Assembly: GCA_963930775.1 (NCBI GenBank)
Contig: OZ005691.1
Span: 8,119,000 to 8,182,999, forward strand
Length of the DNA: 64,000 bases
Origin: Cliona cf. orientalis
Lineage: Eukaryota; Porifera; Demospongiae; Clionaida; Clionaidae
Direction: 5' to 3'
The position numbers and the translations under genes are program-made. Positions 12,778 through 19,922 of this stretch are shown in pieces. Every line of letters begins with the position of its first letter. The first letter of the stretch is position 1. The notes under the pieces are model-generated. The model saw nothing but the letters and a program-made list of their open reading frames with translations. It did no database searches and was not told where the DNA came from.

Positions 12778-13048
12778 GATGGGGATAATAGCGCATCCCC
12801 ATCACCAGTATCTCCAAGGAAAAAGATGCAGATTAATAAACTTGGAGGCCTGGCCATACTCAACCCACAAATGCTTAGCTGCAAATACACTGTAAACCTC
12901 CAACCCATAGCATCGGTAAGGCCTCCACCATGCATTAGTGCACAACAAGCCACGCCTCAGGTCGGGTACACCCTCCAAACAACTACCCTGTCTAGCCAGC
13001 TCGCATGCCTCTGCTAGGCTATACTTAGAAAACCGACAAACAGTTAAA
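12778..13048 (+). repeat. 271-bp direct repeat, unit A
   Basis: Nearly identical to 13332-13602. It carries a plus-strand frame (SPVSPRKKMQINKLGGLA...) that meets a GTAAGG donor-like site at about 12914, but no homologue is known to me, so coding status is open. The two units flank a 283-bp segment (13049-13331) whose left part is the duplicated 186-bp module. Confidence 0.85.
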
Positions 13049-13233
13049 TGGGGGTTAAACGTATAGTTTAACCCGAGTTAACTGAAGGAGGGTGTGATCG
13101 GCTGGGCGTGGCTTACGCATGCGCATAACCGGTATCCATGGGCGCCAAACAGCGACTCTTGAAGCGGCTGCCGCAACAACACTGCTCAGTCTGGGCCTTG
13201 ACAACAGCAAAGCTGCCAGCTCAAACCAAAGCT
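13048..13233 (+). repeat. Duplicated 186-bp module, copy 2
   Basis: Near-identical to 7517-7702, and here placed exactly at the end of unit A of the 271-bp direct repeat. High identity argues for a recent copy. The internal ATG (13138) opens MGAKQRLLKRLPQQ as in copy 1, but the frame then continues differently. Confidence 0.8.
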
Positions 13234-13331
13234 CCCACCCTCCCACCCCTAGCCTTGGCTCTGCTACCACCGTCCAACTGGTCCAAAGTTGATGCTGAAT
13301 CAGTTGTGACCAGTACCCACCTGTGGATGGG

Positions 13332-13602
13332 GATGGGGATAATAGCGCATCCCCATCACCAGTATCTCCAAGGAAAAAGATGCAGATTAATAAACTCGGA
13401 GGCCTGGCCATACTCAACCCACAAATGCTTAGCTGCAAATACACTGTAAACCTCCAACCCATAGCATCGGTAAGGCCTCCACCATGCATTAGTGCACAAC
13501 AAGCCACGCCTCAGGTCGGGTACACCCTCCAAACAACTACCCTGTCTAGCCAGCTCGCATGCCTCTGCTAGGCTATACTTAGAAAACCGACAAACAGTTA
13601 AA
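13332..13602 (+). repeat. 271-bp direct repeat, unit B
   Basis: Copy of 12778-13048. Its last base directly touches the left inverted repeat of the two-gene transposon at 13603, so the transposon either inserted at this edge or ended the duplicated block. Confidence 0.85.
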
Positions 13603-13642
13603 GGATTTTCCGGTTGCTTGTCTGAAAATTTGAATTGTCTGG

Positions 13643-13654
13643 TACGCATGCGCA
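13643..13654. promoter_or_regulatory. Subterminal CGCATGCGC palindrome, left end
   Basis: TACGCATGCGCA lies 40 bp inside the left TIR and 126 bp before the accessory ATG. A mirror-placed GCGCATGCGCAA lies at 15853-15864, 40 bp inside the right TIR and about 72 bp before the transposase ATG. The motif matches the NRF1-type palindrome; it may be a promoter element, a transposase subterminal site, or both. Confidence 0.5.
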
Positions 13655-13779
13655 ATTATACATATACGATATACGGTATGTCAGTAACAGTACCGCCAAA
13701 TTGCCGCGCGAGACAGGTGATTTTCACTGTGCCACGAACAGCAAGAAGTATGTAAAGTGTAACGAAAGCGTCCATCACA

Positions 13780-14748
13780 ATGGCAAGTACGTTTCAAGTG
13801 GGATCTCAGTCCCGTGTGAATGTGATTAGGCCAACTTGTCCTATTCGGCAGGTTGTGATCACACCATTATCATCATCTGGCGTTCAAGGGCAACAGCCGC
13901 GTATCATCTCAAAGCTGCTTATGAAAGCCGTCGAAAGAAGTGGTACCAAAGGGAAAAAAGATAAAGGGAAAACTTTCACTTTGAGGGATCTAAATCCATC
14001 AACACTGCAAACGTGTACACAGCTAAAGACTCTAATTAAAGTGCAGCTAGGTGCTGATCTAATCGATGAGTTTGATATCGGCTACATTCAAGGCAATACA
14101 ATTGTGAGTTTAAGGAGCTCTAGAGATATCCAGGAAGTGTGGTTGAGTGTCTTGAAAGGCGAGAATATAACCCTCTGGTGTGATGGTCTCCGTAAAGAGG
14201 GTCAGTCTGGTGCAGCGACCAAGAAACGGCCTAACAAGTCAGTGCAGGAAGAATCTGATGATGATGAAGACTCTGGGGTGACAAAGAAGAAGAAAAAGAA
14301 GAAATCAGAAGAAAGAGAGGAGCAGGTCGAAGACACAATGGAGCAATTACAGTCAATGCATATAAAGAAGTATACTCAAATGCAGTACAGGGTTTGGAGT
14401 GAAATGTATGTTGGAGGAATACACAGCAGTTTGAATGAGCCACCCACAACTACCATGTTTCTTAGAGCAGGTGGCGTGGCACCATCAAAAAAGAAAAGTG
14501 ATCCTGTGTCTGAAGCTCTCACCCACCTTGCATCGGCGATAACCGTGGGACCTGGCTTGGCCAGATCTGGACCATCATCTGCAAATCAAGCAAAAAATAG
14601 TCCCGCAAAAACAATTGAAAATAGATCTCGATGCTATAGGCAACTTGGAGAAATTAAAAGTTTGCACGAGTCAGGTTTATTGTCCGAGATGGAGTATCAA
14701 TCTGAGCGGGAAGCCATCATGGCCACATTAAAGAACCTTTCATGCTAA
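13780..14748 (+). CDS. Transposon accessory protein with SHOCT-like C-terminus
   Basis: A 322-aa single-exon protein with start in good context (cacaATGG). No known enzyme domain is recognised. Visible parts: basic residues 55-65; a putative folded block at about 66-138 ending in ITLWCDGL; an acidic then poly-Lys linker (157-180), probably a nuclear localisation signal; a block at 198-228 with YTQ, RVW, GIHSS and PP...MF; and a C-terminal helix pair at about 285-318 (LGEIKSLHESGLLSEMEY) like the SHOCT domain. The relic gene at 18045-19420 in the neighbouring transposon keeps the same blocks in the same order and the same convergent position. I infer a transposon-encoded DNA-binding or transposase-assisting protein; the biochemical role is unknown. 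Confidence 0.8.
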   Translation: MASTFQVGSQSRVNVIRPTCPIRQVVITPLSSSGVQGQQPRIISKLLMKAVERSGTKGKKDKGKTFTLRDLNPSTLQTCTQLKTLIKVQLGADLIDEFDIGYIQGNTIVSLRSSRDIQEVWLSVLKGENITLWCDGLRKEGQSGAATKKRPNKSVQEESDDDEDSGVTKKKKKKKSEEREEQVEDTMEQLQSMHIKKYTQMQYRVWSEMYVGGIHSSLNEPPTTTMFLRAGGVAPSKKKSDPVSEALTHLASAITVGPGLARSGPSSANQAKNSPAKTIENRSRCYRQLGEIKSLHESGLLSEMEYQSEREAIMATLKNLSC

Positions 14749-14818
14749 ATTGGACAAAATTTAATAATAATATTATTGTGCATACAGTATGTTGTCATTA
14801 TTATACTTGAAAAGAAAA

Positions 14819-15781
14819 TTAAACATATCCACAGTGAGATATATGTCCATAGCAATCATCTGAGGTGATTGTTCCAAAGAGTAGTGCAATGTATGCTCTT
14901 GGATCTGTGCATGCTTCAAAAAATTGATGATTTTGCTTCATTAGGCTCTTCACCTGACTAAATATGCCCTCTACAGGCATCAGATCAGGTGAATAAGGGG
15001 GAAGGAATAAGAGCCTTGCACCAGCTTGTACTTCAATTAAGTCTCTAACTTCTTCAACATGGTGTATGCTAGCATTGTCCATGATCACGACTGATCGGGG
15101 ATTTACACCATTGAATGGAAGCAAATGTGGTAGCAAGCATACCTGAAGAAAGTGAACAAACCGATCCCCATTCATGGTACCTTCAGCAAGGTATACATCA
15201 TGAATACCATCAAGTGAAAGTATTGGGATAGCAGAATACCTTGTTCCTCTCACTAATAGACGGTCGCACACAGGTCTACCACGAACGCTGTAGCCATACT
15301 TTCGAATTGTGTTACGCTTATCGTACCCTGTTTCATCCATCCATATGAGCATGGACGGATCGTAGATAGAAATATCAGCCATGAATTCTGCTCTCAACTT
15401 GTCATCCCTCTGTTTAGCAACACGGCACATTGCTTGCCTTGTGCAACCCATGTGTTTCAAAGTTTTGCAGATAGTGCTAACACTCACCAACACTCCAAAA
15501 ATGTTCATGAGTTTGGTTTGTACCTCATCAAGGTAAATACCAGGATTTTGTAGAATAATCTGGAGTAACGTAAGTTGCTCAAAGTCGCCTAGTAGTCTTG
15601 GAGGACCATGCCTGTACTGTTTTGGCTCAACATCTCCTGTTTGTAGAAACATGGTAATGTACCGTCTCACAGTACGCTCAGAGAGGTGCAGAAGTTGAGA
15701 TATTTCCATAGCTGAGTAGTGTCGAGTGAGAGATAACCACACGACACGCCAACGAAGATCCAAAGAGTAGGGAACAGGCAT
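14819..15781 (-). CDS. IS630/Tc1-mariner-type DDE transposase
   Basis: A 320-aa protein; I choose the ATG at 15781 (MPVPYSLDLRWRVVW) because family members start at this sequence, although the frame stays open upstream to 16237. Residues 1-50 and 55-125 form two helix-turn-helix units (SERTVRRYI; STICKTLKHMG) that should bind the terminal repeats. The catalytic triad is D149 in WMDETGYDK, D235 in IMDNASIHH and E271 in SPDLMPVEGIF, with 35 residues between D235 and E271 (DD35E). It cuts and joins the element at TA sites in the nucleus. No stops or frameshifts are seen. Nearest relatives known to me are IS630-like transposases of cnidarians and sponges. Confidence 0.92.
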   Translation of the reverse strand: MPVPYSLDLRWRVVWLSLTRHYSAMEISQLLHLSERTVRRYITMFLQTGDVEPKQYRHGPPRLLGDFEQLTLLQIILQNPGIYLDEVQTKLMNIFGVLVSVSTICKTLKHMGCTRQAMCRVAKQRDDKLRAEFMADISIYDPSMLIWMDETGYDKRNTIRKYGYSVRGRPVCDRLLVRGTRYSAIPILSLDGIHDVYLAEGTMNGDRFVHFLQVCLLPHLLPFNGVNPRSVVIMDNASIHHVEEVRDLIEVQAGARLLFLPPYSPDLMPVEGIFSQVKSLMKQNHQFFEACTDPRAYIALLFGTITSDDCYGHISHCGYV

Positions 15782-15852
15782 GGCACCGACAAACTCGAAA
15801 CAAAAATTAATACTAGTATTCAAAAATACCGCGCGCGTTGGTTGAGCCTTAC

Positions 15853-15864
15853 GCGCATGCGCAA
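15853..15864. promoter_or_regulatory. Subterminal GCGCATGCGC palindrome, right end
   Basis: Mirror partner of the motif at 13643-13654, at the same distance from its TIR. It lies just upstream of the transposase start on the minus strand, where a promoter is expected. Confidence 0.5.
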
Positions 15865-15903
15865 AATTTCGAATTTTGCGCTGGACAAGCAACCGGAAAA
15901 TCC

Positions 15904-16272
15904 CAGTACTGTTATTAAATAGATGATCATGCATGCTAGCCACATTACCCCACGATTGTGACATTAAACATACTTGTATACTAGTAATAATATACGTGCA
16001 AATGATTGCATCATAACCATGCACCAATAATCTAACTAGGATCTCTGTACATGCCCCACTATCCCCCCACCTGCGTGAAACCAAGGGGTACAAAGGGATT
16101 TTTTTTACAGGAGAAGTTGGACCTAGGATGGGGCATTTGACTTTTCTGCCCACATTGACATAAATTATTTGTAAACTAGAGGGTGTGGCTCCTGAGACTA
16201 TGTTTGCTACATCACAACAGCTGCAGCATGAATGCAATCAAATCCCCTACATTCTACTAGGATATTATACTA
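15904..16272. other. Spacer between the two transposons
   Basis: 369 bp with no gene. It is the only DNA between two elements of the same class in mirror orientation. Confidence 0.5.
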
Positions 16273-16387
16273 CAGAGTGTTTTGCTTCCCTTTGAATGAA
16301 GCCTCATCACATTCTAACCACCATGTACTACATGTGTAACCACCCTACATTAATTAGCGCCCCACAGGCATGCCAGCACAATCATAA

Positions 16388-16398
16388 GCGCATGCGCA
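16388..16398. promoter_or_regulatory. GCGCATGCGCA palindrome upstream of transposase 2
   Basis: The same palindrome found near both ends of copy 1 lies 77 bp before the transposase start. Position fits a core promoter element; function inferred only. Confidence 0.4.
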
Positions 16399-16474
16399 AA
16401 TTTGAAGTGTGGTTTAAAGGTGGGTGTGCTTCTTGCAATAGCGTGTTATTCAAATTTCAGTACAGCGTTCATCC

Positions 16475-17920
16475 ATGGCTAATGCGTTTAGTGCTGAGCC
16501 AGGCCGTACTACCGCCTATTCTGATGATATTCGATGGAGGGTCATTTGGCAGAGATTGGTTAGAGAGATGTCTTTTAGTGAAATAGCCAAGAATTTGAAT
16601 ATAGCTATGGGAACAACTCACAACATCTGGTCAAGATTCATGCTGACAGGAGACGTCAGTGCTAAAAAGCAGCCACCAAGGTACAAAAGGAGAAAGTTAA
16701 ATGAATACGAAGAGCTTTTGCTAACTGGCTTAATTTTGGAACAACCTCAGTTGTATATCTCTGAAATGCGAAAGCACATTCACGATGTTATTGGACTTGA
16801 AGTGTCTAATACAACCATCTGTAGAATTTTAGGAAAGCATGGTTTTACTAGGAAGAAGATCAGACAGGTTGCACAGCAAAGTACGGGCAAGATTCAGAGC
16901 AGAGATGAGTTTCTTTTCAGTGGACCAACTGGTATGGGTGGATGAAACAGGGTGCGATAAGAAAAGTGCTACAGTGAAACCTGCCTTAGCGCACAGTCAC
17001 CTGGACAAGGCGGTCACCTCCTTAATACAGCCACATCCCGTAGGTCCCAAACAGCCACAATGCATTTACTATGGAATGCAGCCTGGATAAGACGGCCATC
17101 CGTATACCGGCCAGTTAGCCAGGTCCCATGGCGTTTACACTAGTACAAATTAGCCTGCCTTTAGTGGCCACTGTAGGACAGCCCCCAGGGAAACCCCCAC
17201 TTGGCTGCCAGGTACAATTAATTTTGTGGGTTTGTTAGACCACCAGCTAATCGCACTTGCAGGCATTCCCAGCACTTTACAGCTCCCTACACTGCTCTAT
17301 TGCAGCCCACAGTTACGTTTGCAACCTCACTTCTCCTACAAGCCACACCCCCTATGTTTTGCATATTGCAGCCACCTCTCTAATGCAGCCACAGATATTT
17401 GGCCCAATGGTGACCGCTTTAGACAGGTTCCACTGTATTTGCAAGCTGGCTACGCTCTGAGGGGTATCACACCCGAGTACCATCGGAAGCTAGTGAAGGG
17501 AAGAAGGCTCTCATCCGTTGCTGCTATCGCTGTTGATGGTGTCGTAGCTGTAGATTTCACTCACGATTCAATGAATGCTGAATTCTTCTATGAGTTTGCT
17601 CGAGGATCACTCATTCCAAACCTCCTTCCGTTTAATGGCCAGAATTCCAGGTCAGTTGTCATCATGGACAACTGCTCAATACATCATGTGGACTGTGTTG
17701 AACAACTCTTTCGTACTAGTCCTATTCTTGCCACCATAATTAATATTACAGTCCAGATATGAACCCTATCGAGCACACCTTCAGTAAGGTTAGGAATCAC
17801 CTGAGGAGACACACACGATGAGCTGGTCCAAATTGTGGATGATGTAACTCCTTTGGTAAGAGCAGCATTTGATACAGTAACTGAGGAGGACTGTCGTGGA
17901 TGGATACAACATTGCAGCTA
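16475..17920 (+). pseudogene. IS630/Tc1-type transposase, broken by frameshifts and a nested MITE
   Basis: The frame opens at 16475 and gives an N-terminal HTH half (YSDDIRWRVIW ... STICRIL-type SNTTICRILGKHG). A frameshift near 16885 is needed to continue into VRARFRAEM and the first catalytic site VDETGCDKK (about 16945). Right after this, a 464-bp MITE (16972-17435) interrupts the gene. The rest resumes as YALRGITPEY..., with the second aspartate in IMDNCSIHH (about 17665), then loses about ten residues and shifts frame before SPDMNPIEHTFSKV, which holds the final glutamate (about 17772). All three catalytic positions can be found but the gene cannot be translated through. It corresponds domain by domain to the intact transposase at 14819-15781. 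Confidence 0.88.
16972..17435 (+). mobile_element. pogo/Tigger-like MITE nested in transposase 2
   Basis: TA|CAGTGAAACCTGCC at the left and GACAGGTTCCACTG|TA at the right form inverted ends with a TA duplication, 464 bp apart. The sequence repeats 'acagcc' and 'cagcca' phrases and holds no ORF of interest. It sits between the first and second catalytic motifs of the host transposase, so it landed after that element inserted. Confidence 0.85.
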
Positions 17921-18044
17921 GCAAGTGTGAATAATTATTATGTATAATTATTGTATATACATGTCAGATTATTATTGTACAACAATAATATACTGTATAG
18001 TACTGTCTTGCCATAAATCAAAGCTTTCCTAAATCACCAAGTAT

Positions 18045-19420
18045 CTATTCTTTCTGCGGTTCATACTCTTCTTTTGTTATGGCTCCATCCTTAAAAAGAC
18101 CATGCCATTCCAGCAGGGTCTTGAGCAGCTGGCCATTCGGTAGTTTGTCTTTTTTCCGAGACTTTGCATCCTTAAAGAATGGCTGGTTTGGTGGGACCTT
18201 GTATGATTCATGCTTGCCCATCTGTATTAAAGGAGCCCACATTCGCAACCGCTCCTGATCGTAGCCTGTATGTGTTGATTAGAGTTTCTCGTAGATTTCC
18301 TGCACCTCACCAAGCTTCTTATCCTGAGACACTGCAACAGGTGACCTTTTTTGGTGCAGCTGTTTTCTGCAGCAAGATGTGGACGTTTTGGCCGTGGGAC
18401 ATCATCTTCTTTTACCACTTTTCGTCCATCACACCATAATAGAACTTCAGTTAGCGTTTATTGCTCATATGCAGCGTACATATCCTTAAGATCATCAGCA
18501 GTGAATATCCATCTCATCTTACCGCATACTCCTCGCTTCTAGGTTCAATATATCCAAAGTTCGTGGCACTCTCATCTGAAACATGCTCATCGAGAGATTT
18601 CTGTAGTTGTGATTTAAGCTCTTCAACATTCACAAATTTTTTTTTCCTGTGTAAGCGCGTAGTTTATGGATCTGATAACCTGCCTTCCTGTCGGGTGGTA
18701 CAACTTTGACTGAATATTCCAAGCACTTGGAGGAATGGTGCACTTGCTGTGGTCTACTTTCACTAGGATCTGACGACATACTGTTACATTCTTGATCAGA
18801 TTTTCCTCCCTATTCTGAATCCAAGTCTATAACTGGTGAATGCTGCATTTGGGGTGCGGTTTGAAGCAGGCTGTATCTATGCGGCAGATTCTGTAAATAA
18901 TAAGTATGTACATGTAAAGCTAATCAGGGGTATAGATACACTGTAGATATCTGGTCATGCATACACACACACCCATACACGGATTTTCCTATTAATGCAT
19001 ACCAGCACATGGCTCCTCATACATACACATACATTCACCAAAATTAATAGCAGCACACCTGTACACAGTACGGCTCTATGTAGGCAAACTTGAGACCGAT
19101 CACAGCATGTGCACATATGCAATATAAAAGTACAAGCACAGTGATGATCTTACAGTTTCATATAGATAGCTACACTGTACACAACAGTGCATACATGGGC
19201 ATACCTGCATCATTTGCGGTGCTACAACAGTGTGGCTGCTGCTAGTGCCTCGAGCTCCTTGAGGTTGTCCATGAACCCACTGTTGTCCCGGTGCAGGAAC
19301 ATGTACAGGTGATGTCAAGTCCACATACTGTCCCGAATTCACCACAAAACGTCAGTCAATAACAGATTGAGGAGGATATCCATACTGCTGTGGATTCTGT
19401 CCCAGCCGCTGTTGAGTCAT
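18045..19420 (-). pseudogene. Accessory gene of transposon 2, decayed
   Basis: On the minus strand an ATG at 19420 opens a Gln/Pro-rich exon (MTQQRLGQNPQQYGYP) that ends at a GTATGC donor near 19204; a TTTACAG acceptor near 18892 starts the next part. There follow, with in-frame stops and frameshifts, FGYIEPRSEE and LLWCDGR, then YDQERLRMWAPLIQMGKHES with VPPNQPFF, and finally LLEWHGLFKDGAITKEEYE at the stop (18045). These blocks match GYI...LWCDG, YTQ...RVW...GIHSS...PP...MF and the SHOCT-like tail of the 13780-14748 protein in the same order. It is longer at the N-terminus and has an intron, unlike copy 1. Confidence 0.8.
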
Positions 19421-19922
19421 TTTTACAGGCAGGCAGGCGCAGTGTAGCAGTGTAGAGTCTCAATATCGCAATGAACAGCTACTTGACAGTAGTCTAAACT
19501 GGTCCAAACCGGGTGCTCAAAACTGGTCCAAACCAGTTCTACATGTACACACTAGTTGTTTTAAGGTATAGTCATGGTGTTGTTTTAGTGCACCACTAAT
19601 TCATTTATACCTACAAGTGTACTACAGCTGTCTACTGAGTACAGCAGAATTCAAAGGGAAGCAAAACACTCTGTAGGTGCTGAATAGGGGAATTGACTTC
19701 AAAGGTTGCTTCTGACAATTGAAACCGTCATTGTCAAATCCCCTAGTATGCCCCTACTCGGAGCGGGAGGGGGATACTGTAGCATACCGTTGACAGGTGC
19801 GTAACGATTTCGTTAAAATACCAAGCCAAAGTAATTTCATTGGTTACTTCTAGCATAATCAAATGGATAGTGCTCGACCCTCTCTCACGTTTCAAAAACC
19901 ACATCCACTAGGCAAGTGAGAG

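Follow-up and report, generated by a model that had tools for sequence, protein, structure and literature searches.

Two adjoining transposons share a convergent gene pair

A 64,000-nucleotide stretch of the genome of the sponge Cliona cf. orientalis (contig OZ005691.1, positions 8,119,000 to 8,182,999; hereafter the window, whose own numbering is used for coordinates) contains two adjoining TA-flanked transposons, element 1 at 13603–15903 and element 2 at 16270–19676. A sequence-only reading of the window had proposed that, in both, an IS630/Tc1-type DDE transposase and a second gene, here called the accessory gene, converge on each other, and we located both pairs inside perfect inverted repeats. 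In element 1, the accessory gene (13780–14748, forward strand; an open reading frame (ORF) of 322 amino acids) and the transposase gene (14819–15781, reverse strand; 320 amino acids from the likely Met, DD35E) lie tail to tail with ~70 bp between them, and both are enclosed by a 20-bp inverted repeat. Its left copy (13603–13622, forward strand) forms a perfect 20-bp core with its right copy (15884–15903, reverse strand), and the bases nearest the left flank have diverged, as comparison with locus L010 and with the right end indicates. The stop-to-stop transposase ORF spans 472 amino acids and extends beyond the inverted repeat. A copy of element 1 at C5:11438525 is 98.4% identical over the whole element and 99% identical in its accessory protein.

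The transposases are readily classified. Three diverged members, with that of element 1 given first, score 94.3, 106.9 and 109.4 bits against DDE_3 (cut-off 28.6) and 145.8, 138.2 and 140.8 bits against the NCBIfam IS630 model (cut-off 100), and the element 1 transposase also matches HTH_23 (31.4 bits, cut-off 24.6). No DDE_Tnp_4 match is among those listed for these three proteins. Catalytic triads of the IS630-Tc1-mariner group range over DD34–39E/D; of 31 transposase ORFs examined, 18 have DD34E or DD35E, the other 13, many of them truncated, being without the full motif set in the pattern search. A sequence search of the PDB with the transposase gave no match (E up to 0.1).

Element 2 is a decayed relative bounded by a perfect 28-bp terminal inverted repeat (16270–16297, forward strand, with TACAG from 16271; 19649–19676, reverse strand). 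The first part of its transposase, identified by tblastn, lies at 16490–16979 (forward strand) in a broken frame: 16490–16903 is 49% identical to the transposase of locus L008 (E 1e-43), and 16878–16979 is 44% identical to the element 1 transposase. The second part, also broken, lies at 17397–17918 (forward strand). The two largest pieces share 32–36% identity with the element 1 transposase. An insertion of ~430 bp, whose imperfect inverted ends of 20 bp are 80% complementary, splits the gene at 16999–17428, limits that are approximate, and is possibly a small non-autonomous transposon.

On the reverse strand, element 2 carries an accessory relic at 18021–18514 that retains the end of a PB1 domain, a central block and a C-terminal hairpin. 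The relic is genuine: aligned to a diverged accessory encoded at another place in the genome, it reaches 75.5 bits, compared with a best score of 27.3 bits among 500 near-dinucleotide shuffles, of which 474 gave any match, and a whole-genome accessory search matched it blind at C3:8137152–8137370 (window 18153–18371; E 6.9e-14). A weak further piece lies at 18517–18663 (14.5 bits). The relic first read from the sequence stands for 18021–18514 and not over a whole stretch up to 19.4 kb. Among the groups compared, L008/L063 comes closest to element 2 in repeat, transposase and accessory alike.

Left of element 1 (window 13000–13602), a direct duplication with an offset of ~554 bp was read by eye. 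The duplicated stretch, ending ...aaaccgacaaacagttaaa, runs from 13000 and appears again at ~13554–13602, and element 1 begins directly after the second copy.

The accessory gene accompanies the transposase across the genome

We searched the 216.8-Mb, 149-contig assembly for both genes. Transposase places from a DDE_3 search (best 150 of 548 candidates) and from a search with the element 1 transposase (best 125 of 569) were merged into 169, and searches with three diverged accessory proteins gave 244 merged accessory places. Each transposase search scored only the best 116–150 of 548–606 candidates, and the search counts are lower bounds.

Among the 169 IS630/Tc1-type transposase places with the best scores, an accessory homologue lies within 5 kb at 161. 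The two genes are convergent, tail to tail, in 160 of these 161 linked places, with a median gap of 146 bp. A local hidden Markov model (HMM) detected accessory pieces at six of the remaining eight, bringing the places that hold the gene or pieces of it to 167 of 169. How many places seem to be without an accessory depends on the query: 82 of 169 with the window accessory alone, 8 with the three accessories and 2 with the local HMM. Single-query counts mislead because the 82 apparent absences shrink in this way to 8 and then to 2. The last two, L069 (C1:19008693–19009412) and L074 (C14:5613981–5614826), are candidates for decayed or truly one-gene derivatives. With 20 places picked by eye from two further transposase searches, 14 of which were new, the enlarged set has an accessory by coordinates at 172 of 183 places.

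The linkage also holds in the reverse direction. A scored transposase lies within 5 kb of 165 of the 244 accessory places, and of 175 after the two more transposase searches; accessory homologues are thus not found mostly away from transposases. Among the 69 accessory places without a scored transposase within 5 kb, 7 fall in loci that were read, and all 7 have transposase remnants. A transposase ORF is present in all 38 loci fetched through an accessory match, which were the best-ranked ones and in some cases represent one element twice, and the eight best DDE_3 loci, chosen irrespective of the accessory, all carry one. Both genes occur in each of the 66 loci L001–L066, which are likewise best-ranked and in several cases show the same element twice.

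An association of this kind could arise as an artefact of nested or neighbouring repeats, with two independent transposons preferring the same place, and the genome is indeed repeat-rich, with many copies of DDE_3 and DDE_Tnp_4 elements. The single geometry in 160 of 161 places argues against such an origin, as does a control superfamily. We chose Harbinger-type DDE_Tnp_4 (PF13359) for this purpose because mariner Transposase_1 (PF01359) gave no match here or in 14 control genomes and was unusable as a negative control. Around the best 90 of 143 Harbinger matches, an accessory lies within 1.5 kb at none and within 5 kb at three, none of them convergent, and the Harbinger loci L067 and L068 contain neither an IS630/Tc1-type transposase nor an accessory. 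We consider the artefact so improbable as to carry almost no weight, and it is refuted by the bounded copies described below, in which both genes lie inside one inverted-repeat pair.

The linkage result concerns one genome, and the relatives in protein databases are known as protein sequences only. One search there gave 24 clusters of relatives, a second 66, of which 22 were shared with the first, and a third 102 others. These 102 clusters (P0069–P0170) belong to a third accessory clade, and some are encoded on contigs as long as 9.7 Mb. The system may occur in other organisms as well, or these clusters may represent a further assembly of the same species. Relatives with linked DNA were found neither in viral contigs nor in contigs of prokaryote genomes.

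The two genes move as a unit

Near-identical copies at different sites define the limits of the mobile unit. L004, L005 and L006 are 99.8–99.9% identical at different sites, and their match breaks off exactly at the TACAG...CTGTA ends or no more than a few bases away. The same boundaries, enclosing both genes, delimit L063, L064 and L065 (95.9–99.7% identical) and L059, L060 and L062 (~94–97% identical, in pieces). Between element 1 and its C5 copy, matching stops at ends of another type, with TACTGGG on the right. Because near-identical copies bounded by inverted repeats enclose both genes, accessory and transposase are mobile as one unit. Among the 14 locus pairs compared, L013/L051 represent the same place and L002/L007 repeats L059/L062; L017/L019, L021/L034 and L032/L034 gave split alignments in which both ends are not defined, and the boundaries therefore rest on the remaining pairs.

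The bounded two-gene elements measure ~2.15–2.83 kb. Their inverted repeats are flanked by TA and have TAC...GTA ends in the bounded copies, the left tip of element 1 having diverged. Across elements, the end types share TAC-N-G and a T-run (one L063 end in this comparison was read 2 bases short). The repeats of elements 1 and 2, first read as unrelated, thus have tips in common, and that of element 2 is closest to the L063 group. The elements are probably members of a large, TA-inserting lineage of IS630/Tc1-type DNA transposons with a two-component design.

At C4:5069774–5074005 (L017, L018, L052 and L053), two near-identical two-gene elements adjoin in inverted orientation, with their accessories ~2.3 kb apart; the stretch retrieved there contains perfect inverted arms of 800 nt. 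This inverted pair could form a hairpin transcript.

The accessory protein is predicted to contain a PB1 domain

The accessory families are 23–50% identical to one another, and the three collinear blocks noticed from the sequence hold over a 57-row alignment in which many rows are partial. Models of two diverged accessories (~23% identical) agree in three parts: a PB1 domain, a helical block in the centre and a hairpin that resembles SHOCT. In the element 1 protein, modeled with AlphaFold2, the predicted PB1 domain covers residues ~39–137 (13894–14190, forward strand) in the order strand-strand-helix-strand-strand-helix-strand, with a predicted local distance difference test score mostly above 90. 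It is followed by a Lys-rich stretch and a conserved central helical block at residues ~169–232 (14284–14475, forward strand), which appear in the alignment and the model and include R204, W206, G213 and P222, and by the C-terminal helical hairpin at residues ~275–320 (14602–14739, forward strand), seen in the model and as a weak Pfam SHOCT match. The blocks are real, and the first of them is part of the PB1 domain, which the sequence-only reading had overlooked.

The models predict a ubiquitin-like PB1 fold. In fold searches that covered the whole models, 21 PB1 domains, 16 of which carry that name in their titles, head the structural matches of the element 1 protein; the best matches include the PB1 domains of aPKC, NBR1 and p62, and the PB1 part fills nearly the whole list in both structural-match tables. 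At E ≤ 0.1, the Pfam PB1 profile (PF00564) matches 7 of 30 members, the lowest value being 1.6e-5, with P0012 at 23.0 bits against a cut-off of 23.6; it does not match the 322-residue window protein itself. The 28-residue SHOCT profile (PF09851) matches 21 of the 30 at this threshold, with a lowest E of 3.4e-6, and is precomputed for a few database proteins, such as P0012. The C-terminus, which the sequence-only reading called SHOCT-like, is modeled as a hairpin, and the seven members with listed scores, at 12.8–24.6 bits (12.8 for the window protein), stay below the 27-bit cut-off. Other Pfam matches of the accessory (MRP-L47, DDHD, GvpG, DTHCT, RE_SacI, DDE_Tnp_1_6 and others) are weak, vary by member and were set aside. 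Among the matches listed for the scanned accessories there is no catalytic family at cut-off and no Myb/SANT-type ORF1 match (one scan listing 25 of 31 families), and a PDB sequence search with the accessory profile gave only three weak matches, all to one DNA glycosylase (E ≥ 0.27).

A lysine in strand 1 marks type II PB1 domains, and an acidic OPCA cluster marks type I. In the accessory alignment, position 49 in strand 1 is basic in 38 of 38 rows (36 Lys, 2 Arg), R69 is present in 39 of 40 rows, K83 is basic in 42 of 44 and D116 is present in 46 of 46. The turn between strands 3 and 4 has no conserved acidic cluster, the conserved acids being D93, D116 and D135. This pattern would suit a host-hijacking adaptor, in which a basic PB1 domain resembling type II would dock acidic PB1 proteins of the host (of the p62/NBR1, aPKC/Par6 or MEKK kind) and so alter stability, localization or signaling. 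An acidic partner would have to come from elsewhere because the element 1 transposase has no PB1 match in a Pfam scan, and the aPKC, NBR1 and p62 domains among the best structural matches point in the same direction. We nonetheless regard the adaptor as improbable: the typing of PB1 classes by these residues is tentative, and D93, D116 and D135 could form another acidic face and so allow self-assembly.

Both genes keep pace and are under selection

Accessory and transposase diverge together. Their distances correlate with a Mantel r of 0.857, which none of 9,999 permutations reaches, over 21 of 31 elements (near-duplicates and L001 dropped). Pooled, the 15 close pairs give a ratio of non-synonymous to synonymous differences per site (pN/pS) of 0.53 in the accessory and 0.52 in the transposase. 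For six hand-chosen, less decayed pairs, it is 0.20 for each gene; one transposase ORF is truncated or broken in three of these pairs (L019, L065 and L060), and L063 enters twice. The other nine close pairs, some of which hold frameshifted copies, give 0.60 for both. Across eight diverged pairs, accessory pS is saturated (0.75–0.88), with pN at 0.26–0.54. The second gene is thus under selection, with pN/pS below 1 in both genes, and the equal values support the earlier proposal that the accessory is needed for the life cycle of the element.

These data also bear on whether the second gene is a captured passenger, hitch-hiking inside the inverted repeats. Transposons do capture host genes by transduplication, the likely source of the PB1 domain in plant MUGB genes according to the available part of that report (PMC8616336), and of 19 elements that have a long transposase ORF, 4 carry a broken accessory. 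A passenger would not readily explain the retention of the gene or its pieces at 167 of 169 places in one geometry, across families that are 23–50% identical with saturated synonymous sites. Nor does it fit the equality of pN/pS between accessory and transposase, or the 38 fetched accessory loci, among which there is no transposase-free accessory. We judge this origin very unlikely.

A proposed role in transposition

Selection, together with analogy to other two-gene transposons, suggests that the accessory is probably a trans-acting cofactor of transposition, most likely an obligate one, and the partner appears to be needed for the spread of the element. PB1 and SHOCT-type parts are interaction modules. 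Assembly or targeting is more likely than catalysis because the accessory combines a PB1 domain and a hairpin of this kind with no catalytic family at cut-off among the matches listed. We envisage that the disordered linker ending in the Lys-rich stretch probably carries the accessory into the nucleus. Binding of the transposase or of transposon DNA would fall to the central R-x-W/GxHxS/PP block and the C-terminal hairpin, which would also self-associate. The task of the PB1 domain, whose basic residue in strand 1 is invariant, would be to dock a partner of the acidic PB1 or ubiquitin-fold kind, and this docking would assemble or target the transposition complex. The accessory would then play the role that ORF1 plays in PIF/Harbinger elements.

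A more specific form of this proposal is possible and, in our view, doubtful: that an ancient IS630/Tc1 sub-lineage is an obligate two-component system with a PB1-domain scaffold, whose transposition would depend on PB1-mediated assembly, by polymerization on the transposon ends or through a borrowed host acidic-PB1 protein. We know of no Tc1/mariner element with a PB1-dependent transpososome architecture.

Several observations weigh against a cofactor role or against the generality of the pair. The 169 transposases are the best-scored ones, several hundred weaker candidates of the first look having been left unscored. L069 and L074 have no detectable accessory within 1.6–1.8 kb on each side (local HMM; eight places checked), and 3 of the 14 added transposase places are without one by coordinates alone. 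The pN/pS of 0.20 comes from hand-chosen pairs with few differences (25.5 synonymous and 18.5 non-synonymous in the accessory), and the 0.53 over all close pairs points to decay in many copies, in accessory and transposase alike. The broken accessory ORFs occur in L042, L045, L048 and L055, counted by hand, of 19 distinct transposase-chosen elements whose transposase ORF is at least 310 amino acids long. In the ciliate element TBE, accessory proteins left DNA binding unchanged in an Escherichia coli test, as the available part of the report describes (PMC12242761). Selection and analogy, on which the cofactor role draws, would be equally well explained by a regulator.

Such a regulator is the main rival: the accessory would act outside the transposition reaction as an element-encoded regulator, an anti-silencing factor or a copy-number repressor. 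The same linkage and the same selection would be expected of it, and interaction modules of the PB1 and SHOCT type would serve it as well. The accessory also evolves faster than the transposase (46% versus 70% identity between element 1 and L012), as in host conflict. A regulator should in general be lost more easily than a catalytic partner, yet gene or pieces persist at 167 of 169 places, and we consider this reading rather unlikely, if much less so than the adaptor or the passenger.

Tc1/mariner elements are textbook minimal transposons, which is one reason for their use as gene vectors; a large lineage that keeps a second protein means that members of the superfamily need not be minimal. 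The elements offer a two-component system of natural origin whose assembly module is separable, and the predicted PB1 domain, with its conserved residues, provides a handle on the function of the partner. Annotation pipelines that look for transposases only could overlook the second gene or label it a host gene.

Comparison with known systems

A PB1 or SHOCT partner in Tc1/mariner elements was described in none of the papers listed by searches of open-licence literature (Repbase entries lie outside these searches), in agreement with the sequence-only reading, which knew of no description of it. That reading had also noted that Tc1/mariner elements are usually described as one-gene elements. 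One ORF is indeed the rule in the accessible part of one account (PMC10379824), and the ciliate elements TBE and Tec already break it. One-gene Tc1/mariner and IS630 elements share with those described here a DDE_3/IS630-type transposase, an N-terminal helix-turn-helix, DD34E or DD35E, a TA target and short inverted repeats; as a rule they have a single ORF, whereas here a second, conserved and convergent gene is present (at 161 of 169 places, with pieces at 6).

TBE and Tec are the multi-protein Tc1/mariner elements that we found in print, and they likewise combine a Tc1/mariner transposase with further proteins (PMC12242761, PMC7325037). The accessory proteins of TBE, from Oxytricha, are under purifying selection, but they comprise a zinc-finger/kinase protein of 57 kDa and one of 22 kDa for which no domain is predicted (PMC12242761), and ORF2 of Tec, from Euplotes, is a site-specific recombinase (PMC7325037). 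Their descriptions set both apart from the present elements, and the available parts of these sources mention neither PB1 nor SHOCT.

Other superfamilies offer likenesses in design. Kolobok elements also combine a DDE transposase with a second protein or domain that is specific to the lineage, although they belong to another superfamily and their accessories are nucleases, a helicase or KolX, as far as the accessible text goes (PMC9587614). The plant Mutator-derived MUGB genes join a PB1 domain to transposon-derived proteins; in the available part of the report, they are domesticated host genes in which PB1 lies in the same protein, and not a separate gene of a mobile element (PMC8616336). PIF/Harbinger needs ORF1 in addition to its transposase (PMC9921582, seen in part) and, despite its different transposase superfamily, likewise places a DDE transposase and a required second protein in one element. 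It may therefore be regarded as the functional analogue of the two-gene elements, comparable in role.

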